From the IMG/VR virus record IMGVR_UViG_3300020215_000097, positions 1-37,775 of that record: 37,775 bases of DNA. One strand, 5' to 3'. The notes beneath the pieces are model-generated. The model had not been told where the DNA came from, ran no database searches, and was given only the letters and a program-made list of their open reading frames with translations. The position numbers were made by a program, and so were the translations under genes. The stretch is from a virus. Positions 6,570 through 30,760 of the stretch are shown in pieces. Position 1 is the first letter of the stretch, and each line of letters begins with the position of its first letter.

Positions 6570-7808
6570 TCAGCCTTCCCAGTTCGTGATCGGTACGCGG
6601 AACCAGCCGTAGATCTGGTCGAGGTTGTCGATGACCATCGGCAGGTTGCCCGAGGGATTGATCGTCTGCGCGTTCATCGCGGAGCTCGCGGCACCCGTGA
6701 GCAGGTACTGCCCGACCACCGTGGTCGACGAGTTGTAGGCCCACGACCCGCCGATCAGGTTGTTGCCAGCGGAGTCGTCGCGGACGTCGCACTGCCCGAA
6801 CATCATGCGGCCCGCGGCGGTGGACATGATCTTCGCCGTGTCGATCGTTAGCCCGTGCGGGATCGTGACCTGAACCGACGCCGCCTGAGTGTTCACTCCA
6901 CTGAACTGGATCAGAACCTGAACTTCGAGGCAGTCGCCCACGCGCCGGGTCTTGCCGGTCGCCGAGACGTTCGAAGAGAGATTTATCGCCATCGTAGCCG
7001 TTACCCACTCGCTCGGGATGCGGCGCTCAAGGATGACCCAGTTCGCCCCGTCCGAGGCAAGGAGCAGGGACTCGAACGGAGTCGCGAGCTTCTTGGTTAG
7101 AGCGCCGTTAATCGTCTCGGTCGCGTTCGCGTCGATCGTGACGATCCCCGTGTAGGTCGAGTCGATCTTGATCAGTTGAACGGGCTTCTTGCGGCCCACG
7201 GCGGTAGGGAGGTTGATGGTCATCGAGCCGCTTGCGGCGTTGCAGAGCACGACGTCGACGTCGTCGGCGACCGTGTAGCCTGAGTCCGCGAAGGCCTTGG
7301 TAACGATGATCGGGGTGACGAAGTTCCCGAACGTCATCTTCCGGAGCGCCGTCGCGGAGAGATCGTAGATCATGAGCTCGTCGCCGATCGCGGGAACGGT
7401 CTCAGCCGTCTGCCCATTGATCGCCGAGGCCGCCAGCTTCCCGCCGCCAGCAGCACCAGTGACGGCGCCCGTTGCGAGCTTCGCCGCGGTGACCGCGCCG
7501 TCGGCGATCGAGGCCGTGACCACCGAGTTATTCGAGATGATCCCGACGACGTTATCGATCGTCCATTGGGTGACGTCCGCCGAGTTCTTGAGCACGAACT
7601 TGTAGCTCAGCGTCGGGTCGAGCCACATCGCGGCCTCGCCGTTCGCGTCGAGAACGAGGGGATTGGCGTTCGGCGTCCCACCTCCCGAGTCCGTGTACGT
7701 CGCCTGAGGCGTCGAGGTCCCCGCGGCGTACGAGTAGATTTTCCCGCCGGCGAGAGGGTTGCCGTTCGAGTCCGTGTAGCTCTGCCGGAGAACTGGAGGA
7801 AGATTCAT
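6570..7808 (-). CDS. Tail fibre / receptor-binding protein
   Basis: 412 residues. The first 90 residues (LRQSYTDSNGNPLAGGKIYS ... NANPLVLDANGEAAMW ... YKFVLKNS) are the conserved virion-attachment module found at the start of many podovirus tail spikes and fibres. The middle (about residues 190-270) has the common P-x-Q-L-I-K-I-D ... LLASDGANWVI beta module, and the C-terminus is a separate beta-rich domain likely to bind the receptor. No pectate-lyase-type helix repeats are seen, so it is probably a non-enzymatic fibre. It overlaps the ejection protein gene by 4 bp. Confidence 0.8.
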   Translation of the reverse strand: MNLPPVLRQSYTDSNGNPLAGGKIYSYAAGTSTPQATYTDSGGGTPNANPLVLDANGEAAMWLDPTLSYKFVLKNSADVTQWTIDNVVGIISNNSVVTASIADGAVTAAKLATGAVTGAAGGGKLAASAINGQTAETVPAIGDELMIYDLSATALRKMTFGNFVTPIIVTKAFADSGYTVADDVDVVLCNAASGSMTINLPTAVGRKKPVQLIKIDSTYTGIVTIDANATETINGALTKKLATPFESLLLASDGANWVILERRIPSEWVTATMAINLSSNVSATGKTRRVGDCLEVQVLIQFSGVNTQAASVQVTIPHGLTIDTAKIMSTAAGRMMFGQCDVRDDSAGNNLIGGSWAYNSSTTVVGQYLLTGAASSAMNAQTINPSGNLPMVIDNLDQIYGWFRVPITNWEG

Positions 7809-10096
7809 TTCCTAACTCCCTTTTGGATCTGTTCCTTGATGCGCTGAAGTCTCGGGCTTCCGGGTGAGAGGTCGGACGCCTCAATCAGCAGGCGTCTGAC
7901 GGCGGGGTCGTTCGAGACATCGGAGAGTCCGAGCATCGCGGCGCCTTTCGCGGCCCAGGCGTCTGGGCCCTTGCCCGCGGGCTTGCGGTCGCTCTCGGCC
8001 TCGGCGACTTGCCGGAGCTCACCCCCGCGGAAGGGCTTCGCAGCGGCGACGCCCGCGCGGGCCGTGTTCGCCATCCGGTCGAACGGGAGCTCGGCGAGGA
8101 GCTGTTTCTTGACGTGCTCCGGCACCTGGAGACGGGCGACCCAGTCCTTCGGAGCCATGGTCTTCAGCTTCGCGACCTGATCGAGGATCGCGCGCGCGGA
8201 CTGCGGACCGAACTTATCGACCACGAGGCGACCGAAGAGAGCGCCGGCGCCGCCCCCAAGAACTCCGCCAGCAGCGCCACCGCCCGCAAGGAACCCGATC
8301 GAGCCGGTTACCGCGGCCCAGAAATTGGTGTTCGCGGACCCGCGGGTGAACTCCTTATCGAACGCGGCGATCGTCTTCGCGTCCTCGATCTGCCCCGAGT
8401 AGTTCTTCCCGAACTTCTGATCCATCGACCGCACGAGCTCGCCCTGGTCGAGTCCAGCCGTCTTGGGGCGCAGCTGGTTGCGGATGAGGGCTTCGGCGCC
8501 GCTCTGCCCGAACTCGTTCGGCGCGACGTTACGGAAGGGTGCCAGCTCGCCGATCGCGGCATCGAGCTCGCTCTGCGCCGCCTTGAGCTCCCCGCCCTTC
8601 CGAGCGGCCCGGTAGCGCTGCAGCAGCCCCTTCAGCTTCTGATACTCGGGCAGGGTCGAGCGATCGACCGCCGCGAGGTAGTTCTGCCCGTTCTTCTCGC
8701 CGAGGAGGCGAAGAATCTCCGCACGGTCGGCGCCCGAAGGCTTACCCGCGGCCTGAAGCGCCCTAGCAGCGCCGCCCTCGGTGGCCATCCCCTCGGCGCC
8801 CTTGAGCAACCGGGTATCGGCAGAGACGCCAGCCATCTGCTGCGCATACTCGGGCGACGCCTTCAGGGGCGCGTCGAAGCGCCGGCGGAGGACCCCGAGG
8901 ACCTGGTCGTCCTTGGACAACCGTCCGACGGACCCCGGTGCGAGGTGGTTCATCTCGCGGTCGAGGGACTGGATGAGTCTCTTGGCTTCGCCACCGGAGA
9001 CGTCCTTGCCGAACTTGTCCAGGCGCTCGCGGTAGCGCTTGAGGAGCTCGACGACCGCGACCTGCTCGTCGGTGACGGCCGACGCCTCCAGCGCCTTAAT
9101 CCCCTTGGTGAGATCCCCCTTGATCGGCGAGACCGGGACGCGGACGCCCTCGTCGTCGAGGATCTGGAACGCCTTCTCGGAGCCGGCGGAGACGTCCTTG
9201 TTGAGCCGCTGGACGTCGCCCGACACCCGAGCCGCCGTCTCGCCCAGTCGCTGCTCCTGAGCCAACCGGAGAGACTCCTTGCCCTCGCCCTGAGCATCCC
9301 GGAGACGCGCGAGCTCCTCGGCCCGGCGCTCCTTCGCGGCACCGACCCGTCCCTTCGCCGAGCCCACGCGCTCGCGCAGCGGCTGAAGGGTCGAGTCCAT
9401 GTCATCCTTGATCGTCGAGATCGCCGAGCGGGTGTCGACCACGTCCTTGAGTCGCTCGTGGTTCTGGAGGTAGCGCCGCGCCTGTGCCTCGTCGACGCCG
9501 AAGGCACCGGACAGCGCCTTCATTCCGCCCTTCTCGGCGAGCGCCCCACCCTTGGCGATGACCTTCCCGCCGGCGCGGAGTGCGACGTCAGTAACCCCAA
9601 CGCCGGCCTTGACCGCGCGCTTCGCCATCCCCGCAGCGGGGATCAGGTTAGTGACGTCGGCCGCGGTCTCGATGCCGAACCCCGCGACCTCCGCAGGCGA
9701 GAAGGACTCGACGTCCTTCCCGACGTGCCCCATTCGGCGATGAGAGGCGGCGAGCCCGGGGTTGTTCAACTCGTCGAACCTTCGCTGCTCCTCGGCCGTC
9801 CGGAGCGTCTTCCGCTGGTCGTTGAAGCCCTCGCGGCGCGCGATCTGCTCACCGCTCGGAGCGAGAGACGGGTCCTCGCCCGCCTGGTCCCACGCCTCGC
9901 CGACGGCCGCGCCGAGACCCTTGCCGTCTTGGAGCGCGCCGATGCCCTTGCGAATGGGCGCGCTCGCGTAGGAGTCATAAGCCCGGATCGCGGACTGGAG
10001 CAGGCCAGGCTCTCCGCCCGGAGGCGGCAGGTCGTCGATGCCGCCGGAGGGTGCGCGCTGGCGGATGGGTGGCGGGAGGTCGTTAATCGACGGCAT
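7805..10096 (-). CDS. Large internal virion / DNA ejection protein
   Basis: 763 residues. The N-terminus is rich in Pro and Arg, followed by long charged helical segments (ESLRLAQEQRLGETAARVSG..., AKERRAEELARLRDAQGEG) and a glycine/alanine-rich hydrophobic patch near residue 610 (GSIGFLAGGGAAGGVLGGGA) that could insert in a membrane. It occupies the position of P22 gp16/gp20, proteins injected with the DNA. No lytic transglycosylase motif was recognised. Confidence in an ejection role comes from place, length and the membrane-insertable patch. Confidence 0.65.
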   Translation of the reverse strand: MPSINDLPPPIRQRAPSGGIDDLPPPGGEPGLLQSAIRAYDSYASAPIRKGIGALQDGKGLGAAVGEAWDQAGEDPSLAPSGEQIARREGFNDQRKTLRTAEEQRRFDELNNPGLAASHRRMGHVGKDVESFSPAEVAGFGIETAADVTNLIPAAGMAKRAVKAGVGVTDVALRAGGKVIAKGGALAEKGGMKALSGAFGVDEAQARRYLQNHERLKDVVDTRSAISTIKDDMDSTLQPLRERVGSAKGRVGAAKERRAEELARLRDAQGEGKESLRLAQEQRLGETAARVSGDVQRLNKDVSAGSEKAFQILDDEGVRVPVSPIKGDLTKGIKALEASAVTDEQVAVVELLKRYRERLDKFGKDVSGGEAKRLIQSLDREMNHLAPGSVGRLSKDDQVLGVLRRRFDAPLKASPEYAQQMAGVSADTRLLKGAEGMATEGGAARALQAAGKPSGADRAEILRLLGEKNGQNYLAAVDRSTLPEYQKLKGLLQRYRAARKGGELKAAQSELDAAIGELAPFRNVAPNEFGQSGAEALIRNQLRPKTAGLDQGELVRSMDQKFGKNYSGQIEDAKTIAAFDKEFTRGSANTNFWAAVTGSIGFLAGGGAAGGVLGGGAGALFGRLVVDKFGPQSARAILDQVAKLKTMAPKDWVARLQVPEHVKKQLLAELPFDRMANTARAGVAAAKPFRGGELRQVAEAESDRKPAGKGPDAWAAKGAAMLGLSDVSNDPAVRRLLIEASDLSPGSPRLQRIKEQIQKGVRK

Positions 10097-15780: not shown

Positions 15781-17007
15781 TTAGCCGAGGATCTTGCACG
15801 CCCACTCCGGGCGCAGTTCCTTCCAGCCGTACATGACGTCGAGGCGGCACTTGAACTTGTCCGCGTCGAAGTCGTAATCGCGCACGATGCGGATCGAGAG
15901 GCCCGTCTCCGGGTCGGTCTCGACGGCCGAGAAGTGCACGCCCTCGGGCTTCTCCAGCGGGACGACGGCGAGAGCGAAGGCATCCTTGTGCATCAGGATG
16001 TTGCTCACCGTCAGCGCGGAGGCGCCGATCGAGGAGACCGCGACGAAGGAGATCGCCGCGTTATCCGCCGGAGCGGCATCGACGTTCTGAAGGCTCGTCG
16101 AGGCGTAGATCGCCGGGGAGATCGAGATCGTCGCGTTGCCGGAGCCGTCGGAGTTGGCATCGGCCGTGACGACGAACTGCTGCAGCACGCCCGTGGACGC
16201 CTTGGTGATCGGGTTCACCTTGTAGACGTTCGCGATCGTGAACACGTCACCGGCCTTCACGACGCCCGTGATCGAGTTCGACCAACCGTCCGTGACGAGC
16301 GAGGTCGCGCCAGCGGCGGTAGCGCCGTTCATCAGCGGCGTGCCGCCCCGAGCGCCCGAGGTGTGCGAGTACACGTTCTGGCAGCGGTACCACTCGCCGC
16401 CAGCGGCCACGCCCATGAGGCCGCGCTTGTACTGCTTCTCGATCTCGCCGCCGGAGTGGAACAGGCCCTTCAGCGCGTCGACGATCTTGGTCGAAGCCGC
16501 GGGGTTGATGTGGAACGAGTAGTTCTCGTCCTGCGGCCCAGCGCTTTCCGCGATCTTCTGCTGCGCTTCGAGGTAGGTCAGGAGCGCGGACGGGGTCGTC
16601 GCAGCCGTACCAATCGCATTGTAAACCTGCTTGGCAGCCAGGGTCAGCCCATCGACGTCGACCTTGTTCGCCAGCGCGAGGGCCGCGGGCTTCAGGTAGC
16701 GCTCGGAGAAGTAGTCGACGGACATGGTGAGGTCCTTCGAGAGGAACTCGAACCCGACGTGCTTCTGCGTGTCGATCGTCAGCGTCGCGCTGTCCTCGGT
16801 CACGTCCTGAGCGCTGTACGTCGCGCCGTCGGTGACGGTGAAGCGGTTCGGCTTGCGGATCTTCTCGCTCGTGCCGATCTTCGCGCCCTTCTTGGCGAAG
16901 TCCTTCGAGTACGAAGAATCGACGTTCTTCGAGAACGAGAGGTTGTTCTTGAACTGCATCAGCGCCTCTTTGGCGATGACGGTGGGGGTAAGAAGACTGT
17001 TAGCCAT
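15781..17007 (-). CDS. Major capsid (coat) protein, P22 gp5-like
   Basis: 408 residues, close to P22 gp5 (430). The N-terminal helix (ANSLLTPTVIAKEALMQFKN) is the standard opening of the P22 coat family. It is followed by the HK97-fold core, with an inserted beta domain around residues 215-320 (the I-domain slot), and ends with the strand DYDFDADKFKCRLDVMYGW. The protein lies downstream of the scaffold as expected. The ribosome site GGAG sits 10 bases before the ATG inside a hairpin loop (17011-17030). Confidence 0.9.
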   Translation of the reverse strand: MANSLLTPTVIAKEALMQFKNNLSFSKNVDSSYSKDFAKKGAKIGTSEKIRKPNRFTVTDGATYSAQDVTEDSATLTIDTQKHVGFEFLSKDLTMSVDYFSERYLKPAALALANKVDVDGLTLAAKQVYNAIGTAATTPSALLTYLEAQQKIAESAGPQDENYSFHINPAASTKIVDALKGLFHSGGEIEKQYKRGLMGVAAGGEWYRCQNVYSHTSGARGGTPLMNGATAAGATSLVTDGWSNSITGVVKAGDVFTIANVYKVNPITKASTGVLQQFVVTADANSDGSGNATISISPAIYASTSLQNVDAAPADNAAISFVAVSSIGASALTVSNILMHKDAFALAVVPLEKPEGVHFSAVETDPETGLSIRIVRDYDFDADKFKCRLDVMYGWKELRPEWACKILG

Positions 17008-17046: not shown

Positions 17047-18096
17047 TCAGCCCCGTCGGCGCTTCATTTGTTCGCGACGCATCCGCTCGTACTCGGCGAA
17101 CGAGAGGTCGGGGTCGTCCAGCGACTTCTGGACCGTTCCCTTGCTCCCGCCGACGGGCTCGATCGGCTTCGGCGCCTTGGTTGTTTTTGGTTCGGGCTTC
17201 TTCGCGGACGCTTCCGAGGCGCGGGCGGCGATGCGGGTTTCGATCTTCCCGAGCTCGCGAGCGCAAGCGAGCGGAGAGAGCTGAGCGATGCGCTCGTACT
17301 CCTTCCGGTTCTTCGCCAGCTCGTACATGAGCGCGGGCCCCTGGTCGGACGTGACGATGAGCTCCTGAAACGCCGCGGAGACGGGAATGTCGTCCACGTC
17401 GCTTAGGGCCTCTTCGAAGTCGTCGTGCTGCTTGGCGAACGTCTGAACTCGCTCGAAATGCTCGCGTTGCGCGCGCTGCTGCTCGGCTTCGAGCGAACGG
17501 CGCTGCTCCTCGGCGTCCCTGGCTTTCAAACGCTGCTCAAGCTTCCAGTCGGTCAGCGCCTCGACGTACTCCGCGTGTGATTCGAAGTTATCGGCGACGG
17601 GCTTCCCATCCGGCTGCACGGACTTCGAGAGGTCGGCCTTCGGCTCGGGCTTCCGGGAGTCGTCGGCGCCAGACTTCAGCGCCACCGTCTTCCAATGCTC
17701 GATCTCGGCCTGGGCCGCGGAATAGCGCGCGTTCAGCTTGTCGATGCGACGCTGAAACCCGCCCTTCTTCTTCGGCCGCTCCTCTTCGCCTTCCTTCGCT
17801 TCCAGCTCGTCTTTCGACTCGTCTTCCGCGTCGGAATCGTCCTTCTTCCCTTCCTTGCCTTCGGTCTCCTCGGGGTCCGAATCCGTGGATGAATCTTTCT
17901 GCCCGGCGGGCTTGGCGCTCGCGGGCGCGGACTGCTTTGCGACTGCCTCGGTCTTCGTAACGACGGGAGCGGGCGCCTCGCCTCGGCGGATCTTCTCGTA
18001 CTCAGAGAACGGAACTTCGCTGAGTTCGTGCGGAGAGCCTACGGGGTTGAGCGGCTGATCGCCGGCGCTGTCAGAAAGGGGCAGGTGGTTCGTCAT
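17047..18096 (-). CDS. Scaffolding protein, P22 gp8-like position
   Basis: 349 residues from ATG 18096 (MTNHLPLSD), a start 26 bp inside the end of the portal gene. An upstream in-frame extension exists but covers the portal frame. Composition is extremely charged: long acidic stretches (DPEETEGKEGKKDDSDAEDE), a predicted coiled coil (residues about 115-240), and a basic C-terminus (MRREQMKRRRG) like the coat-binding end of P22 scaffold. It directs procapsid assembly and leaves before DNA packaging. Confidence 0.8.
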   Translation of the reverse strand: MTNHLPLSDSAGDQPLNPVGSPHELSEVPFSEYEKIRRGEAPAPVVTKTEAVAKQSAPASAKPAGQKDSSTDSDPEETEGKEGKKDDSDAEDESKDELEAKEGEEERPKKKGGFQRRIDKLNARYSAAQAEIEHWKTVALKSGADDSRKPEPKADLSKSVQPDGKPVADNFESHAEYVEALTDWKLEQRLKARDAEEQRRSLEAEQQRAQREHFERVQTFAKQHDDFEEALSDVDDIPVSAAFQELIVTSDQGPALMYELAKNRKEYERIAQLSPLACARELGKIETRIAARASEASAKKPEPKTTKAPKPIEPVGGSKGTVQKSLDDPDLSFAEYERMRREQMKRRRG

Positions 18097-20287
18097 TGGG
18101 CATTCCCATGGGTGAGCCCGGTGATTCCCCGCCGGTAGGGTCGCCCCCGCCGAGCCCGACATCAGCACCCATGGGCGCCATCGGTTCCGGCTGGGGTTCA
18201 TCTTGGGTGACGTCCGCGATGGGGACGTGGGAGTTCAGGAGCGAGAGGCGCTGCTCGATCGATCCGATCTCCGCGTTGAGGAGCGCGAGCGAGTCCTTCG
18301 CGTCGAGCTGAGCCCGGGCGATTTCCAATTGGACTTCGAGCTTCTTGAACTCGATCCGCTCCTTGGATTCGAGCTCGATCCGCTTCTGCTGGATCGTGTC
18401 GCTCGCCTCGTTGAGCTTGCCCGTGAGCTGCTCGATCATCTGGCTCATCTGCTGCATCTGAGCTTGAGCTTCGGGCGGGAGCGCCTTCCCCTTCTTCTCG
18501 GGGTCGTCGGCCAGGCCCGGAGGGAGGGTCTTCTTCAGGCGGTCCGCGATCTCGGCTGCGCCGGGCCAGTCCATGTTCTTGACCATGAGGTCCCCGGCGA
18601 ACTGAGCGAGCGGGGGATACGCCTTGGTCACTTCCATCATCGACGCCACGGCCTCTTGGCGCTTCGAGGCGAAGGACGGCCCGACGTCGACCGTGACGTC
18701 GTAAACTCCGGCGTCGAGCGCGTAGAGGACGTCCTTCCCCTTCCGCTGGGTCGGAGCGTTGAGCTTGACGACCTCTTCGTCGCCTTCCTCGCCGATGATC
18801 CGCTCCGCCCGAGCCGTGTCGTAAATGTGCGGGATGAGGTCGATCAGCACGCGCCCGGCGTGCTTCAGCGAGCGCGTCAGGTTATCGATGAAATGGAAAT
18901 TCGAGGTCTGCGCCTGCATGTTCCGGCGCTGAATGGCGACGCCCGAGGACTCGTTCGACTTGTTCCCGAGCGCGGCGTCGTAAATGCCCGTGGTGGCTTT
19001 CAGGTCATCCGAGGCCAGCATGCGCGCCTGGGTGATCGCCTGGACCGCGGGCTCGAAGGAATTGCGCTGCGGCGGCGGGACGGCCATCCCGTTCGTCGCG
19101 AGAGGCTTATAGGTCAGGTAGGCATGGTTTCGGCGGTTCGCGGATTTCCACTCCGCCTCGAAGCCCTCGACCTGCCCCGCGGCGATGATAAACGGCGTCC
19201 GGGGGGCGAGCGCGATCGCCTCGGTCTCGGCGGAGGCCCAGTAGTTGTACATCCGCTGCGAGTCCTTCGCGTTTCGGACGACCCCTTCGAGGATGCGCTT
19301 TCCGTCGATGTACCCTTCCGTGCCGTAAACGGGGATGATCGGGATGTACTTCCCGGGCCATTCCCGCTTCTCTAAGATCTCGGTGCCGTTCAGCTTGCAC
19401 CAGCGAACGAAGGGGACCAGCGCCTTCCGCGTACGCACCACTTGCGGGAGGACCCCCGCCGCGGCGCTGGCCTGCATGAGCTCGTCGAGCTCGGAGGCAA
19501 GGACGACCTCACCGCTGTCGAGAAGCGCGAGCTCCTCCTCGCGGGTGTCCTTGTAGAAGTATTCCGCAACGCGCGCGCTGCTCTCCTTGATCCAGTTCGG
19601 CGGCGCGTTCCCGGTCGCCTCCCACTCGGCGTTAGCGAGGTCCGACTTCGGATAGCGCGCCTTGTACTCGTCGCGTGAGAGCTCCTCGATGACGAACGCA
19701 AAGTTGGCGTCCGACCCGTCCGACTCCTGGGAATGGGGGTCGAAGAACACGGAGAAGGGATTGCGGATGCGTTTGATCAGGAGCTTCTGATCGAAGCTCG
19801 TTGGCGAGACGTAGTCGGTGACGATCCGGAAGTACCCGAAGCCACCGGTCGCAGCCGCATCGAAGGCCGTATCATAAGCCGCATCCGCACTGGAATCGTA
19901 CTCGATATGCCGGATCAGGCCCTGGATGACCTTCGCCGTCTCGACGTCCGCGCGATCGTCGACCGGGTGAACCTTGATCGACGGGCGATTCTGCCGCTGA
20001 TCGTTCGTGATCTGCTGGATGAACTGCGGGATGCGGTTGATGACGAGACAGGGCCGGCCGTCGGACTGACGCTCGGAGACGACTGCCTCGGGCCACTGCT
20101 TGCCGAAGCGGAATTCGAGGTCGTCGAGCGCGAGCTTCCGGATCTCGGTCTCGGCCGTCTGGGCCAAGTCAAAGCGCGCGAGCGCCTCAGCGAGAATCTC
20201 GTCGTCGGTCTTCTCGGCCGCAGGTTTCTCGACGTCCGCGGCGGGTTCGCCGTCGGCCGGAGATTCGTTACTGTAGTCGTCTGCCAC
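18071..20287 (-). CDS. Portal protein, P22 gp1-like
   Basis: 738 residues (P22 portal is 725). The segment LEFRFGKQWPEAVVSERQSDGRPCLVINRIPQ and the following NDQRQNRPSIKVHPVDD are signature sequence of the P22-type portal family. The C-terminal third is helical (barrel), with a coiled coil near residues 620-690 (IQQKRIELESKERIEFKKLE). A GTG start at 20287 is used; no strong ribosome site precedes it. It forms the dodecameric DNA channel and lies downstream of a divergent promoter region rather than directly after terminase. Confidence 0.9.
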   Translation of the reverse strand: MADDYSNESPADGEPAADVEKPAAEKTDDEILAEALARFDLAQTAETEIRKLALDDLEFRFGKQWPEAVVSERQSDGRPCLVINRIPQFIQQITNDQRQNRPSIKVHPVDDRADVETAKVIQGLIRHIEYDSSADAAYDTAFDAAATGGFGYFRIVTDYVSPTSFDQKLLIKRIRNPFSVFFDPHSQESDGSDANFAFVIEELSRDEYKARYPKSDLANAEWEATGNAPPNWIKESSARVAEYFYKDTREEELALLDSGEVVLASELDELMQASAAAGVLPQVVRTRKALVPFVRWCKLNGTEILEKREWPGKYIPIIPVYGTEGYIDGKRILEGVVRNAKDSQRMYNYWASAETEAIALAPRTPFIIAAGQVEGFEAEWKSANRRNHAYLTYKPLATNGMAVPPPQRNSFEPAVQAITQARMLASDDLKATTGIYDAALGNKSNESSGVAIQRRNMQAQTSNFHFIDNLTRSLKHAGRVLIDLIPHIYDTARAERIIGEEGDEEVVKLNAPTQRKGKDVLYALDAGVYDVTVDVGPSFASKRQEAVASMMEVTKAYPPLAQFAGDLMVKNMDWPGAAEIADRLKKTLPPGLADDPEKKGKALPPEAQAQMQQMSQMIEQLTGKLNEASDTIQQKRIELESKERIEFKKLEVQLEIARAQLDAKDSLALLNAEIGSIEQRLSLLNSHVPIADVTQDEPQPEPMAPMGADVGLGGGDPTGGESPGSPMGMPNDEPPAPF

Positions 20288-20311
20288 GTTTCAATGCTGA
20301 AGGGCGAGCGA

Positions 20312-20350
20312 CTATAGGCTAGCTATAGGCTAGGTATAGAATAGGAATAG
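20312..20350. promoter_or_regulatory. Array of 11-bp repeats, site 1 (RHH operator candidate)
   Basis: Four units, each 11 bp apart, start at 20312, 20323, 20334 and 20345: CTATAG, CTATAG, GTATAG and GAATAG. The first two 11-mers are identical (CTATAGGCTAG). The array fills the 85-bp gap between the leftward portal gene and the rightward gene at 20373. Read leftward it contains TATAGT at 20316-20311, and read rightward TATAGA, both possible -10 boxes. The 11-bp spacing places each unit on the same face of the helix. A second array of the same motif lies at 23399. Confidence 0.6.
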
Positions 20351-20372
20351 TAACGCGCGAGGAGGTACGTCG

Positions 20373-20804
20373 ATGGACACCAACGATCTGAAACCCGGGC
20401 GAGAGCTCGATGCGCTCGTCGCGGAGAGGGTCATGGGCGCGAAACTCCGTTGGTCGAATCTAGAGATCCCCCCGACCAAGCTCGATGCGTTCCTTCAGGA
20501 GCGCGACGAGTTCCTGGGGCCGCCTAAGACGGGGATCGAGGCATCGAGGCGCGCCGAACAGCGCAGGCGGGATGAGCAGATTCTTCCGCCGTTTAGTACG
20601 GATATCTCGGCGGCGTGGGCCGTCGTTGAGGCGATGGCCGCGCGGGACTGGAGCTTTGCGTTCCGGTTCTCCGAGTCAGACCGCTCGCTGGGGGCGACGT
20701 TTTCGTCTCTCGGCGAGAAGGAGGGCCATCAGGAGTGGTTCGGCCTGGATCACGCCCCGCACGCCATCTGTCTCGCCGCGCTGAAGGCGGTCGGGAGGCG
20801 CTAG
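20373..20804 (+). CDS. Phage ABA-sandwich domain protein, inserted between portal and terminase
   Basis: 143 residues. The opening LKPGRELDALVAERVMG, the central PPFSTDISAAWAVVEAM and the ending HAICLAALKAVG are the standard signature of the phage ABA sandwich domain family, whose function is unknown. A good ribosome site (GAGGAGG) lies 7 bases upstream. It is the only rightward gene within the late operon and has its own promoter region (the 11-bp repeat array), which is the typical layout of a moron, an accessory gene picked up between structural genes. Confidence 0.8.
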   Translation: MDTNDLKPGRELDALVAERVMGAKLRWSNLEIPPTKLDAFLQERDEFLGPPKTGIEASRRAEQRRRDEQILPPFSTDISAAWAVVEAMAARDWSFAFRFSESDRSLGATFSSLGEKEGHQEWFGLDHAPHAICLAALKAVGRR

Positions 20805-20814
20805 AGCTCGGGGC

Positions 20815-22401
20815 TCAGCCCATCCAGGAGTCGGCGCCGCCCGAGTAGGTCGCCCGGGGCGCGGACTTAGGCGCCGGCTTCGGGAAGACGGCTCCGAGGG
20901 TCGGGTCCAGGATGCGGGCGCGGCAGTCGAGCATGTCGTCGTGAACACAGACGGGGAAAGCGAGATACTCGTCCGTATTGAACGCCTGGACGTAATCGCG
21001 CGTATTCCCCTCGGCGTCGACGAACGCGAGCCGGCGAGGGGAGTAGAATCGCCCCTGTTCGTAAACGGGCACCAGCCTCTTGATGCGATCCGTTTTGGCC
21101 ATGGCGCCGCCGAGCTCCGTGATCTCGAAGCGGTAGTTCCGGCGCTCCATCTCCCCACGCACATGCTCAATGTCGGCTTGCATCCCGTAGCGCTCATAAC
21201 CAACGGCTCGGGGCGAGTGTTGGATGACGAGCTCGAATAGCTTGTTCGTCCGCTGGGTCAGGTTCATCCGATCGCGGACGGCGTCGATGAGGTAGTAGTT
21301 TCCATCTGGGGCCAGCCCGACGACCTCCATGACCGTGTAGTCCGAGCTCGCCTTTTTGGCGCTGGCTGGGTCGACGAGGACGTAGACGTTCCACTTCGAG
21401 ACGTCGCCGATCGTCTCGTAATACTTCAGCCACTCTTCGCGGAAGGACATCGCCTTATCCGCGACTGGGTCCTGAAGCATCTGCGAGCCGAAGGTGTACG
21501 GGCCCATGTCCCGGCGTTTCCGGAGCAGGGACTCGTCGGAAAGGAAAACAGACCGTCCTTCCGGGGGAGACAGCCCGTTATCCGTGGCCTTATGGATTCG
21601 GGGCGCGACCGTCCCGCGCTCGATCACGGTCCGGTAGGTGTCGTTTAGGTGATACCTCGTGCCGATGAATCGCCTTCGCCCGCCGTCGGCGCCGAGGTTG
21701 TAGGACATTTCCAGCGCCGCCGTCACCTTCTTGATCTGATCCGGCGTCGAGACGCTCTCTAGGGTGACGACGTCATCGTAGACCAGGAGGGTGAAGTGCT
21801 TCCCCGTCGGCTGGCCATCGACCAGGCCCCAGGCCTCGACACTGGCTTCCTTGGGATTGGTTTTCCTCTTCACTACGATCCCGCTATCGAGCGCCCACTT
21901 CGGCGCTTCCGTCCTAGGATTGGCGTAGAGCACGTCGGGGAAGAGTCCCTTCAGGTACTCGTTCGTTTCGAGCTCGCGCTTGATCTGCTCTAGGAAGCCC
22001 TTGGCGTTGGGGCGCGTGTGACTGAAAATGCCGATCGAGACGTTATCGGGATCGACGAGCAGGTCCTGGATGGATTTCGCGAAAGTGATGATCGTCGACT
22101 TGTAGTGCTCGCGGGCCCAGAGATCGAGATGACCGTCCGGCGAGCCCTGGACCTCCCGACAGCGCGCGTAGAGCCAATCCCGATCGACGTCCTTCCGTTT
22201 AAGCGCAACCGTGAGCAGGAAGAACAGGTCGGTCCGACACAGCCGGCGCTGTGCGGCGGTGTTCTCGTCCGCGATGATCTCGCGGTACGCGTCGTTCGCC
22301 TGCTCCCGGGAGAACGCGGAGCAGTCGATCGTTTCGGCGACGAGCCGGCGCGACTTCTCTTCGAGCAGGGCGACGTGCTCCAGGCGGTCCGTTCGGGTCA
22401 A
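20815..22401 (-). CDS. Terminase large subunit
   Basis: 528 residues from a TTG start that overlaps the previous stop. ATPase: the Walker A-like WAREHYKST (95-103) replaces a classical P-loop, as in many phages, and LLVYDD (205-210) is Walker B. Nuclease: the D344 strand (VLVDPASAKK), and the HDDMLD motif (487-492) near the C-terminus provide the acidic cluster of the RNase-H-like fold. The enzyme cuts and packages concatemeric DNA through the portal. Confidence 0.92.
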   Translation of the reverse strand: MTRTDRLEHVALLEEKSRRLVAETIDCSAFSREQANDAYREIIADENTAAQRRLCRTDLFFLLTVALKRKDVDRDWLYARCREVQGSPDGHLDLWAREHYKSTIITFAKSIQDLLVDPDNVSIGIFSHTRPNAKGFLEQIKRELETNEYLKGLFPDVLYANPRTEAPKWALDSGIVVKRKTNPKEASVEAWGLVDGQPTGKHFTLLVYDDVVTLESVSTPDQIKKVTAALEMSYNLGADGGRRRFIGTRYHLNDTYRTVIERGTVAPRIHKATDNGLSPPEGRSVFLSDESLLRKRRDMGPYTFGSQMLQDPVADKAMSFREEWLKYYETIGDVSKWNVYVLVDPASAKKASSDYTVMEVVGLAPDGNYYLIDAVRDRMNLTQRTNKLFELVIQHSPRAVGYERYGMQADIEHVRGEMERRNYRFEITELGGAMAKTDRIKRLVPVYEQGRFYSPRRLAFVDAEGNTRDYVQAFNTDEYLAFPVCVHDDMLDCRARILDPTLGAVFPKPAPKSAPRATYSGGADSWMG

Positions 22402-22580
22402 TGCGGGACGCCTTTCGGTCCGACTGGTCTCAGTGTGGACGCATACAGGAAAATTCTCTGCGCCAGGCGGACCGCATCCTCGTCGGTCGATCCCTCTTCG
22501 AGGACCGGTTGCCCGTCGTCCATCGAGACCTGCGTCGCGAGATAGACGCGCGCGTCCGCTGGGTCGTTAAGGTCCAACAC
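22398..22580 (-). CDS. Small acidic protein between terminase genes
   Basis: 60 residues from GTG 22580, rich in Asp, Glu and Ala (DDGQPVLEEGSTDEDAVRLAQ). Its start lies 14 bp inside the end of the upstream gene, and its stop overlaps the TTG of terminase large subunit. It is likely helical. No family recognised; conserved placement suggests a packaging or assembly accessory role, unproven. Confidence 0.55.
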   Translation of the reverse strand: MLDLNDPADARVYLATQVSMDDGQPVLEEGSTDEDAVRLAQRIFLYASTLRPVGPKGVPH

Positions 22581-22719
22581 CGGGCGCTCCTTTCGGCGTC
22601 TCGATGGCGGCGCAGAGCCTTTGCAGTGATTGCTCGACGCTCCCGCGCGGCAGACATGCGGAGAGGACGACGAGCATCGCGATAAAGAGAGCCTGCTTGA
22701 GGAATGCCTCGATCAGCAT
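22567..22719 (-). CDS. Tiny lipoprotein between terminase subunits
   Basis: 50 residues from ATG 22719; an in-frame GTG at 22740 would add 7 residues and overlap terminase small subunit by 8 bp. A hydrophobic helix (ALFIAMLVVLSAC) ends in the lipobox LSAC. The mature part is only about 28 residues. A lipoprotein inside the packaging module is unusual. Superinfection exclusion and outer-membrane spanin-like roles are both possible. Confidence 0.5.
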   Translation of the reverse strand: MLIEAFLKQALFIAMLVVLSACLPRGSVEQSLQRLCAAIETPKGAPGVGP

Positions 22720-22732
22720 GTCCCTTACGCGC

Positions 22733-23161
22733 TCACGCACTCGTCTCCCCCTTGGGGCTGGCCAACCTTGCTTGAAGAACTCGGATTCTCTCGTCGAGCT
22801 CGGCGTCGGAGAGCTCCGAGGGAGAGCCCTTGGTCTCGATCGGCCTGCCATCGGGGCCCGAGAGCTCGGTGGAGTTCTTATCGCGCTGGTCGAGGTACTG
22901 TTTTCCGAGCCAGATGAGCATGGTCACGTTCCCGCCCATCGCCACGCTGTACTGCTTTGCCATCAACGAGAAGCGAAGAGACGCTCTCTTTTGGTCCAAG
23001 TACTCCGCACAAGTGACCCCAAACCACTCGGATATTCTCCGTGAGAGGGTGTCGACTGAGACGCCGAGCACGCTGGCGATGTCAGTTGCGCGCAAAGGAA
23101 GCGCAGCCAGCTTCTCAAGCTGCTCGCGGCTGATCTCCTTCGCCGGGCGCCCCTTGCTCAC
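22733..23161 (-). CDS. Terminase small subunit
   Basis: 142 residues from GTG 23161. An N-terminal helix-turn-helix (EKLAALPLRATDIASVLGVSVDTLSRRISEW, residues about 16-46) is followed by a long oligomerisation helix region (RFSLMAKQYSVAMGGNVTMLIWLGKQYLDQRD), the standard layout of small terminases. It recognises the packaging site on phage DNA. It lies just upstream of two tiny genes and the large subunit. Confidence 0.8.
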   Translation of the reverse strand: MSKGRPAKEISREQLEKLAALPLRATDIASVLGVSVDTLSRRISEWFGVTCAEYLDQKRASLRFSLMAKQYSVAMGGNVTMLIWLGKQYLDQRDKNSTELSGPDGRPIETKGSPSELSDAELDERIRVLQARLASPKGETSA

Positions 23162-23382
23162 AGCCCCTCCAAATCAGAGAGGTCGGGCTCCAGCCCGTCG
23201 ATCGCTACGATGCCAAGCTGCAGGAGCGCGCCACGCAGAGCGGACAACTGGAGCACCGCCCGTCCCTCGTCAGCTGAGACGTCAAAGGTGATGCGCCACC
23301 CACCGTCGATCGTGGTCGCTGCCTTAACCAGCACCCCTTGGAGTGCGATGCCTGGAGAGCCTGGGGTACCCATACGATCCAC
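23158..23382 (-). CDS. First gene of the late operon, hypothetical protein
   Basis: 74 residues from GTG 23382 (ATG 23373 is an alternative three codons later). The middle (GWRITFDVSADEGRAVLQLSALRG) looks like a small beta/alpha unit. It overlaps terminase small subunit by GTGA. As the first leftward gene after the divergent promoter it will be expressed with the packaging genes. No family recognised. Confidence 0.65.
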   Translation of the reverse strand: MDRMGTPGSPGIALQGVLVKAATTIDGGWRITFDVSADEGRAVLQLSALRGALLQLGIVAIDGLEPDLSDLEGL

Positions 23383-23398
23383 GTTACGCGTCGACCGA

Positions 23399-23454
23399 CT
23401 ATAGGAAAGGAATAGCGACGGTATAGCTTTCCTCGGATTAAACGCTCGCTATAG
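23399..23454. promoter_or_regulatory. Array of 11-bp repeats, site 2, in the late-operon / RHH divergent promoter
   Basis: Three units start exactly 11 bp apart at 23399 (CTATAG), 23410 (GAATAG) and 23421 (GTATAG); a fourth CTATAG is at 23449. Read leftward, TATAGT at 23403-23398 could be the -10 box for the late operon, about 20 bp before its first gene. Read rightward, TATAGT at 23450-23455 lies 7 bp before the ATG of the RHH gene, which fits a leaderless transcript. The gap of 79 bp is thus a shared, bidirectional control site. Confidence 0.6.
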
Positions 23455-23461
23455 TAAAAGG

Positions 23462-23680
23462 ATGAGAGAGATATCGCTGGATGCGATGGTGGACGACTTT
23501 GACCTTTCGGCGCCGCCGCCGACCCCGTGCCTCAAGGCTGGGACCGTGACGACGTGGCTGAACGAGGACGATAAGGCTCGGTACGATCGGCTTCAGGACG
23601 TCAGCGGAGGGAAGTTCGGGCGACAGCTCCGGGAACTCATCCGCGCGGCGATCCGCCGGGCCGAGGCGAAGAGGGCGTAA
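23462..23680 (+). CDS. Ribbon-helix-helix (CopG/Arc-type) DNA-binding regulator
   Basis: 72 residues. Residues about 26-68 follow the RHH plan: a short strand (TVTTWLN), helix 1 (EDDKARYDRLQDVSG), a turn (GGKFG) and helix 2 (RQLRELIRAAIRRAE). The first 25 residues form an acidic arm with a PPPTP linker. The ATG lies 7 bp after a TATAGT box, so the message may have no leader. Beside it, and at 20312, sit helically phased repeats that suit RHH proteins, which bind as dimers along repeated short sites. It likely controls its own promoter and the late genes. Confidence 0.7.
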   Translation: MREISLDAMVDDFDLSAPPPTPCLKAGTVTTWLNEDDKARYDRLQDVSGGKFGRQLRELIRAAIRRAEAKRA

Positions 23681-24370: not shown

Positions 24371-24586
24371 ATGACCGTGACGTACACCGATCCCCAATTC
24401 CTTCAATCCTCCCGGGAGCTGCTGCTGGAGCTCGGCGCTGAGTTCGTCGATGCTGCGATTGAGACGGAGATCTCGTTGGCCAAGGCGCGCGAGGTGGACA
24501 GCCTGCGCCGGCGCGCGGCGCTGCGGTTGGTGCCCGTCGCCAAGCTTGGGTTTGAGCACCTTCACCCGGCGCCCGTTGCCGACTAA
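24371..24586 (+). CDS. Small rightward protein facing the toxin gene
   Basis: 71 residues from ATG 24371 (GTG 24356 is an in-frame alternative, and neither has a well-spaced ribosome site). Helical, acidic N-terminal half (QSSRELLLELGAEFVDAAIE) and a basic C-terminal half. It overlaps the toxin stop by 4 bp in a tail-to-tail layout. It is the only rightward gene of the cargo segment. No family recognised. Confidence 0.5.
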   Translation: MTVTYTDPQFLQSSRELLLELGAEFVDAAIETEISLAKAREVDSLRRRAALRLVPVAKLGFEHLHPAPVAD

Positions 24587-24945
24587 ATGCGGAAGAACTC
24601 GCGGAGAGCGGTCTTCACCTTGTCCTGCTCCGCAAGCGAGAGCGATCCGACGAGCGCGCTGGGCGAGAGCGTCGCAATGGGAAACGTGAAGACCTGGTGA
24701 CAGATGATCTTGCTGTCTTTGGTGATGAATCGCCCGTAGCCGTTCACCAGATCCACCTCGGTCAGGCGAATGGATCCGCCGGCGTTGTTCTGAATCGGAC
24801 AGCAGGTAGCCTCTCTTCGGTGCATGGGCGGAGCGACTACCACGTACATGCGGCGGTCCTTCGATGGGTCGAGCGGCTGTTTAGGGTCCGAGTTCGCGCG
24901 CTCGCGCGCTTGGTTCACCCAGTAGACGCCCCAGAGGTTGGCCAC
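24583..24945 (-). CDS. MazF/PemK-like toxin
   Basis: 120 residues from GTG 24945, three bases after the antitoxin stop. The opening GVYWVNQ, the central strand (DRRMYVVVAP) and the later SKIICHQVFTFPIATL...VGSLSLAEQDKVKTALREFF follow the MazF/PemK plan: first strand with a W/Y-V motif, second V-V-V strand, then an S-x-I-x-C/x-Q-x-x-T-x strand and a final G-x-L helix. Members of the family are sequence-specific mRNA interferases that halt growth when the antitoxin is lost. The catalytic residues are not certain here. It is probably plasmid- or prophage-stabilising or defensive. Confidence 0.6.
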   Translation of the reverse strand: MANLWGVYWVNQARERANSDPKQPLDPSKDRRMYVVVAPPMHRREATCCPIQNNAGGSIRLTEVDLVNGYGRFITKDSKIICHQVFTFPIATLSPSALVGSLSLAEQDKVKTALREFFRI

Positions 24946-25312: not shown

Positions 25313-25954
25313 CTACCCCGCGTCCTCGGCGCCGCCCTTCTTCCTCGCTGCGCGTTTTGCGACGAGCTTGCGCAGGAAGTCCGCGACGACCGCGCGTTCC
25401 GCGGGATCGGTGAGCTGGGCGAGGAGGGAGGGGGCGGGGTCGGTCCGCTTGGTGGCGGCAACGATCGAGTCCTCGCCCCGCGCCTCCAGGGTGCCGGCAA
25501 TCCGCTCAGCGAGGTACCGCTCGTACACCGACTCAAGTTCCTTCACGCGCTCCCGCGCCTCGGGGATGCGGCGGTCCAGGTAGTCCCGCTCGGCCCGCAG
25601 CTCGGCATGTTTTTCGGTCTCTCGATCAACCTTCGAGCAAACCCACATTTCGTCGTCCATGGCATTGAGGACGTCGAGTCGCTCGGCTTCGAGTTCCAAC
25701 ACCTTCTCGCGGGCTTTGCGGACCCTCGCTTGGATCTCACTTTCGGCGTCGGAGAATAAGTCCGTCTCCTCGCAATCGAGCGCCGCCGCCAGCGCGCTGA
25801 TGGTCTTGAAGTCCACGCCCTTCACGGCGTTCTCGATGTTGGAAATCGTCTGGATGGTCACGCCGATCGCCTCGGCGAGCATCTTTTGGCTCAGACCCTT
25901 CCGTCCTCGGCGCCATTGGACGTTTTTTGCCAATGTCTTTAGCGCGTTAGCCAT
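25313..25954 (-). CDS. CI-like repressor with coiled-coil C-terminus
   Basis: 213 residues. Residues about 5-66 form an XRE/HTH_3 domain (GLSQKMLAEAIGVTIQTISNIENAVKG). Residues 68-160 are a long charged coiled coil (KAREKVLELEAERLDVLN...). There is no S24/LexA-type self-cleaving domain, so RecA-driven cleavage is not expected. The ATG at 25954 directly abuts the operator ATATAACCA and has no ribosome site, suggesting a leaderless message as for lambda cI. By place and divergence from the Cro-like gene it is the lysogeny repressor. Confidence 0.75.
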   Translation of the reverse strand: MANALKTLAKNVQWRRGRKGLSQKMLAEAIGVTIQTISNIENAVKGVDFKTISALAAALDCEETDLFSDAESEIQARVRKAREKVLELEAERLDVLNAMDDEMWVCSKVDRETEKHAELRAERDYLDRRIPEARERVKELESVYERYLAERIAGTLEARGEDSIVAATKRTDPAPSLLAQLTDPAERAVVADFLRKLVAKRAARKKGGAEDAG

Positions 25955-25977: not shown

Positions 25978-26006
25978 TTGCAGCAAGTTCCACTATTGGT
26001 TATATT
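25978..26006 (+). promoter_or_regulatory. Rightward early promoter (PR-type) with overlapping operator
   Basis: TTGCAG (25978-25983), a 17-bp spacer and TATATT (26001-26006) are a good sigma-70-type pair. The expected +1 is only a few bases before the ATG of the Cro-like gene at 26017, so its message has almost no leader. The right operator copy TGGTTATAT (25997-26005) covers the -10 box, so binding there would block transcription. Confidence 0.65.
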
Positions 26007-26016
26007 CGTCTCAGCC

Positions 26017-26253
26017 ATGAATGGAACCCGAGCGCGACTCAGACTGAACGGAACCAAGGTGCGGCGGCGGCTCCTGGAGCTCGACATGAGCAAGGAGCGG
26101 TTCGCCGCGGCCTCGGACTTCTCGATGAGCACGGTCGCCAACATCCTCGCCAGCCGGCGGATTGATGAGCGCAACGCCTTCCGGGCCGCCGACGTTCTCG
26201 GGCTGCCCCTGGAGTCGCTCATCGCCGAGGAAGTCGCCTCAGCTACCGGCTGA
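26017..26253 (+). CDS. Cro-like regulator
   Basis: 78 residues from ATG 26017; the ORF extends upstream in frame but only through promoter DNA. A helix-turn-helix (MSKERFAAASDFSMSTVANILASRR, about residues 25-49) with the following ALGLPLES-type helix gives an XRE-like fold. It is the first rightward gene, divergent from the repressor, with a shared operator pair. It lacks a normal ribosome site, consistent with near-leaderless translation. It should promote lytic growth by shutting repressor synthesis. Confidence 0.7.
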   Translation: MNGTRARLRLNGTKVRRRLLELDMSKERFAAASDFSMSTVANILASRRIDERNAFRAADVLGLPLESLIAEEVASATG

Positions 26254-29400: not shown

Positions 29401-29508
29401 ATGAACCACGGGGCGAGCCTAAACGTCACTTACCTCGCCCTTCGGGGGGCGCGCGCGGGGACTCCGAACCTCTGCGCGCGTCTTTCCCATGGGAGGGGGC
29501 TGCGATGA
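29401..29508 (+). CDS. Possible 35-residue ORF upstream of xis
   Basis: ATG 29401 to TGA 29508, overlapping the excisionase start by ATGA. The composition (Arg, Gly, Leu) is not clearly coding. It has no good ribosome site. It may be only a leader region. Confidence 0.25.
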   Translation: MNHGASLNVTYLALRGARAGTPNLCARLSHGRGLR

Positions 29509-29729
29509 CGCCGAAGTATCGTCTCTTCTCCGAGATCGAGGTCGCGGAGTGGTTCGGGCTGTCCGTGAGCACGCTGCAGAAGATGCGCTCCTCAACCCAT
29601 CGCGATCCGCTCCCCTTTACCAAGGTCGGCGGCGCCGTACGATACCGCGAGGACCTGCTCCTGAAGTGGTTGGAGCGCAACACGTTCCTCGACTCGGATC
29701 AGTACTGGTCGAAGAAGGCGACGGGATGA
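29505..29729 (+). CDS. Excisionase-like HTH protein
   Basis: 74 residues with a MerR/AlpA-type winged helix-turn-helix: SEIEVAEWFGLSVSTLQKMR, then the wing TKVGGAVRYREDLLLKWLE. GGGAGGGGG lies upstream. Its stop overlaps the integrase ATG. It is therefore translated with the integrase and probably directs excision at attP. Confidence 0.75.
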   Translation: MTPKYRLFSEIEVAEWFGLSVSTLQKMRSSTHRDPLPFTKVGGAVRYREDLLLKWLERNTFLDSDQYWSKKATG

Positions 29730-30760
29730 AGTCGAAGCGCTATCCCGAGCTCCACAATCTCGACTGGTCGCCGAACTGGGTATTCCGGAAATACTCGTCA
29801 GCGAAGCGCGGGGAGTTCACCAAGAGCACGGGCATCCCGGCGACCGAGGCAAACGCGGCGAGGGCCTACGCCATCGGATTGGAGGCGTTCAACACCTGGC
29901 TCGGCGGGCACCTCCCCTCGGGGCGCCGAATCCTGATCCGCGACCTCGCGCGCGCCATCCTCTCGCTGAAGGAAGGAAAGCGCGCGAACACCTACCGCAG
30001 CGCCCGGCACCAGCTCGAAAATCATGTAGTGCCGGCATTCGGGCACCTGCACCCGAGCCAGATCACGCCGAGCGTTTGGCAGGAGTATGACCAAGCTGAG
30101 CGGAAGAAGGGCGCGCGCACGAAGCTCTACAACACCCGGAAGGCGCTCCTGGAGTGCCTGCACCGCGCGCACTCCGAGGGGATGATCCGGACGGTCCCCG
30201 AGCTCGGATCGTTCGACGCGCCTGCCGCGCCTCCGCGCTACCTCACCGCGAAGGATTTCGCTCGGCTCCAGGGGGAGCTCAGCGGGAACGTGAAGCTGCT
30301 CGCGTTCATCATGTACCACCAGGGGCCCAGACCCTCGGAGGCGTGTCAGTACCGATTCTCCATGATCGACTGGCGCGAGAACACGATCGCGATCCCGGGA
30401 GAGATCACCAAGACCGGGCGAGCCAGAACCATCCCCATGAACTCGAAGGTCGCCCTAGCGTTGGCTAGTCTCATGCGGAAGCGCCGGACGCCCGAGTACG
30501 TGGACGGCGGCCCGATATTCCCCTCGGCGCACAACCCCTCGGAGCCGATGCGGCATTACAACGCGCAGTGGAACCGGGCGATGGCGAACCTCGGTGAGAC
30601 GTGGACGATCTACAACCTCCGGGACACGTTCATCACCAACCGCCTCAAGGCCGGCCTCGCGTCCACCTTCATCGGGAAGTACTGCGACACGTCCGCGGAG
30701 ATGATTGAGAAGAAGTACGCGGTCGCCGAGGCGAGCGTCATGCGAAAGGTGGCCGGCTGA
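29726..30760 (+). CDS. int: Tyrosine-family integrase with unusual active-site residues
   Basis: 344 residues from ATG 29726. A SAM-like N-terminal core-binding domain (about 60-160) is followed by the catalytic domain. Arg202 (GPRPSEA), Lys229 (ITKTGRARTIP), Arg299 (YNLRD) and Tyr331 (MIEKKYA) are at the expected places. The H of the H-x-x-R motif is replaced by Tyr296, and the H/W before the nucleophile is replaced by Lys318 (IGKYC). The family is certain; the active-site set is not the classical R-K-H-R-H/W-Y. It integrates the phage at the tRNA-Arg(UCU) site. Confidence 0.88.
   Translation: MKSKRYPELHNLDWSPNWVFRKYSSAKRGEFTKSTGIPATEANAARAYAIGLEAFNTWLGGHLPSGRRILIRDLARAILSLKEGKRANTYRSARHQLENHVVPAFGHLHPSQITPSVWQEYDQAERKKGARTKLYNTRKALLECLHRAHSEGMIRTVPELGSFDAPAAPPRYLTAKDFARLQGELSGNVKLLAFIMYHQGPRPSEACQYRFSMIDWRENTIAIPGEITKTGRARTIPMNSKVALALASLMRKRRTPEYVDGGPIFPSAHNPSEPMRHYNAQWNRAMANLGETWTIYNLRDTFITNRLKAGLASTFIGKYCDTSAEMIEKKYAVAEASVMRKVAG

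Follow-up and report, generated by a model that had tools for sequence, protein, structure and literature searches.

Which protein reads a pair of 11-bp-spaced hexamer arrays next to the late operons of a temperate phage, and does it switch these operons on or off? The arrays were found in an IMG/VR record (IMGVR_UViG_3300020215_000097) of 37,775 bases and 64% GC, which represents a temperate podovirus-like phage and the full length of which is called the window here. Array P is located upstream of the portal gene, whereas array R lies between the terminase operon and a divergent gene for a small protein of predicted ribbon-helix-helix (RHH) type. As judged from sequence comparison, the RHH protein very probably binds both arrays, and it is, on balance, narrowly probable that these are RHH sites forming the upstream halves of activator-type late promoters, with positive feedback on the RHH gene.

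Array P (positions 20312 to 20350, minus strand) consists of four units at exact 11-bp spacing (CTATAG at 20312 and 20323, GTATAG at 20334, and GAATAG at 20345), which read CTATTC, CTATAC, CTATAG, and CTATAG in the sense of the portal gene. Array R (23399 to 23426, minus strand) has three units at the same spacing (CTATAG at 23399, GAATAG at 23410, and GTATAG at 23421; CTATAC, CTATTC, and CTATAG in the late sense) and is common to two divergent promoters. The whole 37.8-kb window was scanned for three STATAS hexamers at a fixed spacing between 7 and 18 bp. Scores of 18/18 and 17/18 were obtained at 11 bp, exactly at arrays P and R and nowhere else; the best scores elsewhere or at other spacings were 13 to 15, with all values of 14 to 15 stemming from the two arrays themselves. 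Arrays P and R are far above chance and are the sole such arrays in the window. The scan confirmed the unit positions and the exact spacing given in an earlier sequence-only reading of this DNA. That reading had also counted a CTATAG at 23449 as a fourth unit of array R; this hexamer is 28 bp away from the neighboring unit, out of the 11-bp phase, and represents the RHH gene's own −10 element, six bases before the ATG.

A portal search provided 80 related loci. In the nearest relative, L011, whose portal is about 70% identical, four perfect CTATAG units at 11-bp spacing (9930 to 9967) directly precede the portal gene, and a second array, made up of three units with a CTATAG-like hexamer at a distance of 28 bp, is positioned between the terminase operon and a divergent gene, which encodes 73 residues and is 53% identical to the window RHH gene; the whole 34-kb contig contains only these two arrays. 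Both array places, a pairing that the sequence-only reading had proposed to seek in related phages, are also kept in L014, L025, and L003. The geometry of array R is common to these three and L011, and the offset of 28 bp is found again in L011, L014, and L025, where the hexamer is a −10 box six bases ahead of the RHH start codon. Both intergenic gaps were described correctly before, but the labeling of the first as portal versus ABA gene holds in this phage only. The ABA-sandwich gene (PF18066, 3e-10; 20373 to 20804, plus strand) forms an insertion between the terminase and portal genes on the other strand, carries a strong Shine-Dalgarno sequence of its own (AGGAGG), and is missing from the corresponding place in L011; therefore, array P belongs to the portal. 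L003 and L004 likewise have the array and no ABA gene between the terminase and portal genes, and array P as operator of the ABA gene was ruled out.

The arrays track the RHH gene. A strictly defined portal array was present in 9 of 13 genomes with the RHH gene versus none of 33 relatives lacking it (Fisher p=6e-7, a value that overstates independence because the RHH-positive genomes fall mostly into one clade of the portal tree); in three further RHH-positive genomes, L017, L012, and L135, the arrays are weaker but in the right place. Chains of at least three units occurred 15 times at 11 bp and 0 to 2 times at any other spacing in the RHH-positive loci (234 kb), whereas the RHH-negative loci (1,016 kb) contained four at 11 bp, no more than at other spacings. 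The combined periodicity Z at 11 bp was 5.7 for the RHH-side gaps and 5.9 for the portal gaps of RHH-positive genomes, compared to −0.5 in 33 RHH-negative controls. Autocorrelation of the RHH-positive gaps showed peaks at 11 and 22 bp and half-step peaks at 6, 17, and 28 bp, none of which appeared in RHH-negative gaps. Array calls are less certain in AT-rich genomes, and an 11-bp chain in L036 was set aside, as it sits in repeat-rich noncoding DNA. As a separate observation, L043, a relative without the RHH gene, carries five CTATAG units at 9-bp spacing (7685 to 7725).

The RHH gene (23462 to 23680, plus strand) encodes 72 residues, for which AlphaFold2 predicts an extended segment at residues 27 to 33 followed by helices at residues 35 to 48 and 51 to 71, i.e., the strand and two helices of the RHH type within about 45 residues. 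The predicted local distance difference test (pLDDT) value of the model is 86 overall and 94 to 96 over residues 31 to 60. A profile identified 12 full family members among 98 non-redundant loci, separated from the next score by 74 versus 9.5 bits; a thirteenth, in L003, is cut by the contig end. Thr30 and Trp32, both in the predicted DNA-reading strand and predicted to face the DNA, are invariant in the 12 members. A covariation of strand residue 31 with the unit type was dropped, as L010 has Thr31 yet TAAAC units. The nearest solved structure belongs to a CopG-family protein, a weak match (E=0.42) in which the strand and both helices are in register, and the L011 member weakly matches the Arc-like repressor family phrog_3431 (E=0.014). 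The window protein itself had no match in Pfam or PHROGs, did not reach the curated cutoff of the Pfam Arc family (PF03869), and had no match in 50,697 phage records, where a second family member gave only weak partial matches; a Foldseek search with the monomer model returned only meaningless matches. Given the absence of a Pfam or PHROGs match, the assignment rests on the predicted fold and weak similarity, which make membership in the RHH superfamily likely. The family is previously undescribed.

To locate the promoters, arrays were called automatically, without regard to the sequence downstream, and aligned by their last units. In 21 of the 26 arrays, this unit was followed at exactly 12 nt by a hexamer of the form xAxxxT; most other offsets gave 0 to 4 and the next best 8, and the best result of 20,000 shuffles was 11, with none reaching 21. 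The hexamer is mostly TAxxxT and is followed 6 to 8 nt later by ATG or GTG, except at a third array of L025, which shows a longer distance to the start codon and a Shine-Dalgarno sequence. According to this alignment, xAxxxT is the predicted −10 element of the late genes. Since it lies only 6 to 8 nt before the start codon, the late mRNAs look leaderless, apparently starting at the start codon.

In the window, the proposed portal −10 element is CAGCAT (20294 to 20299, minus strand), with 12 nt separating it from the last unit upstream and 6 nt from the downstream GTG at 20287, which starts the apparently leaderless portal gene (18071 to 20287, minus strand; P22_portal E=1.9e-198), the first gene of the structural operon. 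The proposed −10 element of the terminase operon, TAACGT (23381 to 23386, minus strand), is likewise 12 nt downstream of the last unit and lies 7 nt before ATG 23373. If TAACGT is this element, the first gene of the operon (23158 to 23373, minus strand; product starting MGTP) begins at ATG 23373, which is a more likely start than GTG 23382; L025 uses the equivalent start. For the RHH gene, the arrangement is TATAGT-N6-ATG (TATAGT at 23450 to 23455, plus strand), 23 nt (12+11) from the nearest array unit. TATAGT, TATACT, or TATAAT occupies the matching place in L011, L014, L025, and L017, and the window, L011, L014, and L025 share the spacing of exactly 23 nt. When 25 genes of the window were checked, TANNNT was seen 4 to 9 nt before the start in just two, the RHH gene and the leading gene of the terminase operon; many of the others carry Shine-Dalgarno sequences. 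The sequence-only reading had placed the late −10 elements at TATAGT within the arrays. This was ruled out: the base following the last unit is not consistently T among the relatives, which place the element as a separate xAxxxT, corresponding to 20299 to 20294 and 23386 to 23381 in the window. Promoters of a T7-like polymerase (CGACTATAGG at both arrays) were also discarded, as the string is not conserved in relatives and no RNA polymerase was found among the window proteins checked.

With the −10 element 12 nt away at the late genes and 23 nt away at the RHH gene, the arrays occupy the −35 region. No TTGACA-like hexamer was present at 16 to 18 nt in the promoter profile described below, and no sigma-70 promoter matched in window positions 18 to 28 kb. 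The arrays thus show two features of activator-dependent class II (PhoP/CII-like) promoters, namely direct repeats that cover the −35 region with a constant spacing to the −10 element, and a weak or absent −35 element. The only conservation at the −35 position is CT(A/T)T, in the spacer between the last two units, which is more conserved than other spacers and includes one invariant T. This motif may represent a remaining −35 contact made from the other face of the DNA.

Portal-array and RHH-side units match better within a genome than between genomes (p=0.001), the unit core being TATAG in the window and L011, TAAAC in L014, and TAAAG in L025, and both unit orientations occur within one array in L003 and L025. 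These features bear on the proposal that the arrays are read by a host response regulator of the OmpR/PhoP family or by some other phage protein, the RHH gene being merely another target. PhoP boxes are likewise hexamers 5 nt apart located 12 nt upstream of the −10 element, and the PhoP core (T/G)GTTTA is close to TAAAC on the other strand. However, units that vary between phages and match within a genome, a mixed orientation more readily explained by a symmetric dimer than by a factor binding head to tail, and the association of the arrays with the RHH gene argue against such a reader, which we consider improbable. CI-like and TerS-like genes are not common to all array carriers; neither was detected in L011, whose arrays are best kept, and both proteins are disfavored as a common reader. 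The RHH protein, previously named as the obvious candidate, is still the best one, as suggested by the retention of the arrays in RHH-bearing relatives. Even less credence, to the point of near dismissal, is given to chance or to repeats near the terminase genes that serve packaging (pac-like) or DNA structure alone. One array adjoins the terminase operon, and A/T cores at helical spacing would bend DNA, but each genome has two to three copies, placed in every case at a constant distance from a −10 element and a start codon, the arrays are absent from relatives with homologous portal genes, and chance is excluded.

Provided that the RHH protein binds, it probably acts as an activator rather than a repressor. 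This direction of control, on which the sequence-only reading took no position, is favored by the geometry, i.e., arrays across the −35 region, no −35 consensus, weak −10 elements, and registers of 12 and 23 nt like those of PhoP, for which activation has been measured from boxes (hexamer-N5-hexamer) 12 or 23 nt upstream of the −10 element (PMC3335776). RHH proteins are capable of activation, as exemplified by AmrZ (PMC3325190) and AvtR (PMC5569661), although they mostly repress. Alternatively, the RHH protein might bind the same arrays as a repressor that covers the −35 region, keeps the capsid and packaging genes silent in the lysogen or at early stages of infection, and tunes its own promoter. 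Arc, CopG, MetJ, F55, and SvtR all repress; SvtR represses itself and a tail-fiber gene, and F55 holds lysogeny via tandem repeats (PMC5569661). The phage is temperate, and the last units in the window (TATAGT) resemble a −10 element that could be covered. Against repression, the late promoters look unable to fire alone, since they lack a −35 element and have weak −10 elements; the arrays are fixed at 12 nt from the −10 element, as in activator promoters, and the last unit keeps the unit sequence without drift towards TATAAT. We regard repression as unlikely, albeit the main rival.

For activation, the following sequence of events is proposed. RHH dimers would occupy each near-palindromic unit, lining up next to each other on a single DNA face along the −35 region, and would recruit RNA polymerase to the promoter. 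The packaging and structural genes, and in some relatives also fiber genes, would thereby be switched on in transcripts that begin at or next to the start codon. From the other side of array R, the divergent promoter of the RHH gene would be driven as well, which would reinforce RHH synthesis.

Several points weigh against RHH-mediated activation. Most studied RHH regulators are repressors, and an activator with a fairly good promoter in the lysogen would need a further factor holding it off. The portal −10 element of the window (CAGCAT) is poor, and in L022 the RHH-side spacing is 12 nt instead of 23 nt, giving 12 nt on both sides. Membership in the RHH superfamily derives from predicted structure and a weak profile match, with Pfam and PHROGs not recognizing the window protein. 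RHH genes and arrays are concentrated in one portal clade, hence independent co-occurrence events are few; a tree-based analysis of their joint change gave three supported independent pairs, too few for significance. Finally, L028 has an RHH protein and no clear array, so that relatives keeping the protein without the repeats, the observation named beforehand as contrary to a link, come down to this genome, next to the three with weaker, properly placed arrays.

The promoter class was converted into a 46-column profile, trained without the genome being tested and with anchors corrected by hand for a few arrays. On whole contigs of the window, L011, L014, L017, L022, L025, and L135, it assigned the first and second rank to the portal and terminase promoters; L017 had given no promoter to the training. 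In L010 and L018, it added a third promoter before orthologous fiber-like genes, 24 to 25 nt from the start codon. The corresponding third arrays (L168, 4387 to 4437, L018 contig 20285; L163, about 15926 to 15970, L010 contig) show the same 12-nt and 24- to 25-nt spacing, and the fiber-like genes behind them begin with a signal-like peptide. The notion of a late-gene circuit acting at two points is supported by arrays that are paired, helically phased, and kept with the RHH gene, and extends to three points in some relatives. The third array of L025 (5502 to 5529) is situated just behind the RHH gene and before a gene for a 75-residue hydrophobic protein, with a 115-residue membrane-like protein and a lipoprotein-like protein also encoded downstream; this group looks like a lysis cassette, although its proteins had no family match.

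Scans of viral contigs with the promoter pattern yielded 27 matches, with L011 as the only true relative, and the TAAAS version recovered no true relative. Seven unrelated viral contigs (L173, L177, L182, L186, L188, L191, and L192) contain GTATAC units at 11-bp spacing followed by a GGATACxCAGxxTAGxTTAG-like sequence, possibly the mark of another regulator with helically phased sites. Two portal relatives, L083 and L086, lie on contigs binned as a Bathyarchaeota metagenome-assembled genome, for which bin contamination is more likely than an archaeal host. Elsewhere in the window, which encodes a P22-type portal and coat, the integrase (29489 to 30757) and the CI-like (25316 to 25954) and Cro-like (25978 to 26250) genes mark the phage as temperate, and positions 24583 to 24945 (minus strand) weakly match a MazF-like growth inhibitor family (phrog_1936, E=0.022).

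Little is known about the way in which late genes are switched on in uncultivated temperate phages. Here, a testable class of late promoters, defined by exact operator spacing, an exact −10 position, and leaderless starts, comes with a single small candidate regulator, and the profile predicts late operons of related phages straight from sequence. That the undescribed family acts as a master late activator of temperate phages, replacing a regulator of the Q, Ogr, or C type, is a tentative proposal to which we give somewhat less than even weight. If true, a late activator of the RHH type at promoters of PhoP- or CII-like architecture would be out of the ordinary, since the roles known for RHH proteins are mainly repression and partition.

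Among known systems, Arc and Mnt of P22 are also phage RHH proteins binding as tandem dimers, with half-sites about one turn apart. The half-site spacing of Arc is 11 bp. Unlike the present case, Arc controls ant in the immunity region rather than late genes and uses two half-sites, not arrays. Promoters of the PhoP/PhoB class II type share hexamer direct repeats, 5-nt spacers, a box replacing the −35 element, and distances of 12 or 23 nt to the −10 element (PMC3335776); their activator, in contrast, is a winged helix response regulator with two hexamers per box, as opposed to three to four near-palindromic units before leaderless phage genes. Lambda CII is a phage-encoded activator whose direct repeats, roughly one turn apart, straddle the −35 region (PMC7419079), with activator and sigma on opposite DNA faces (PMC7419079, PMC3335776), but the protein is unrelated and acts on establishment promoters, not on late genes. 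RptR has in its own promoter a 6-bp palindrome (TAGCTA) that recurs three times as a direct repeat; these are 9-bp repeats, the protein represses a defense island, and it is not an RHH protein (PMC12255303). SvtR and AvtR of archaeal viruses are RHH regulators that polymerize along DNA; the targets of SvtR are its own gene and a structural gene, and AvtR can stimulate or repress (PMC5569661). They differ in their degenerate inverted-repeat sites and the archaeal transcription machinery. F55 of the archaeal virus SSV1 is a small RHH protein of a temperate virus that uses tandem 11-bp, ATAG-containing repeats (ATAGATAGAGT) at its own and other viral promoters, a site layout matching the one described here (PMC5569661). 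F55 represses early genes at archaeal TATA/BRE promoters, whereas the window arrays precede late genes with a putative bacterial-type −10 element at 12 nt and probable activation, and the likeness is one of site layout. As biological precedents, the virus RHH repressors F55 and SvtR come closest.

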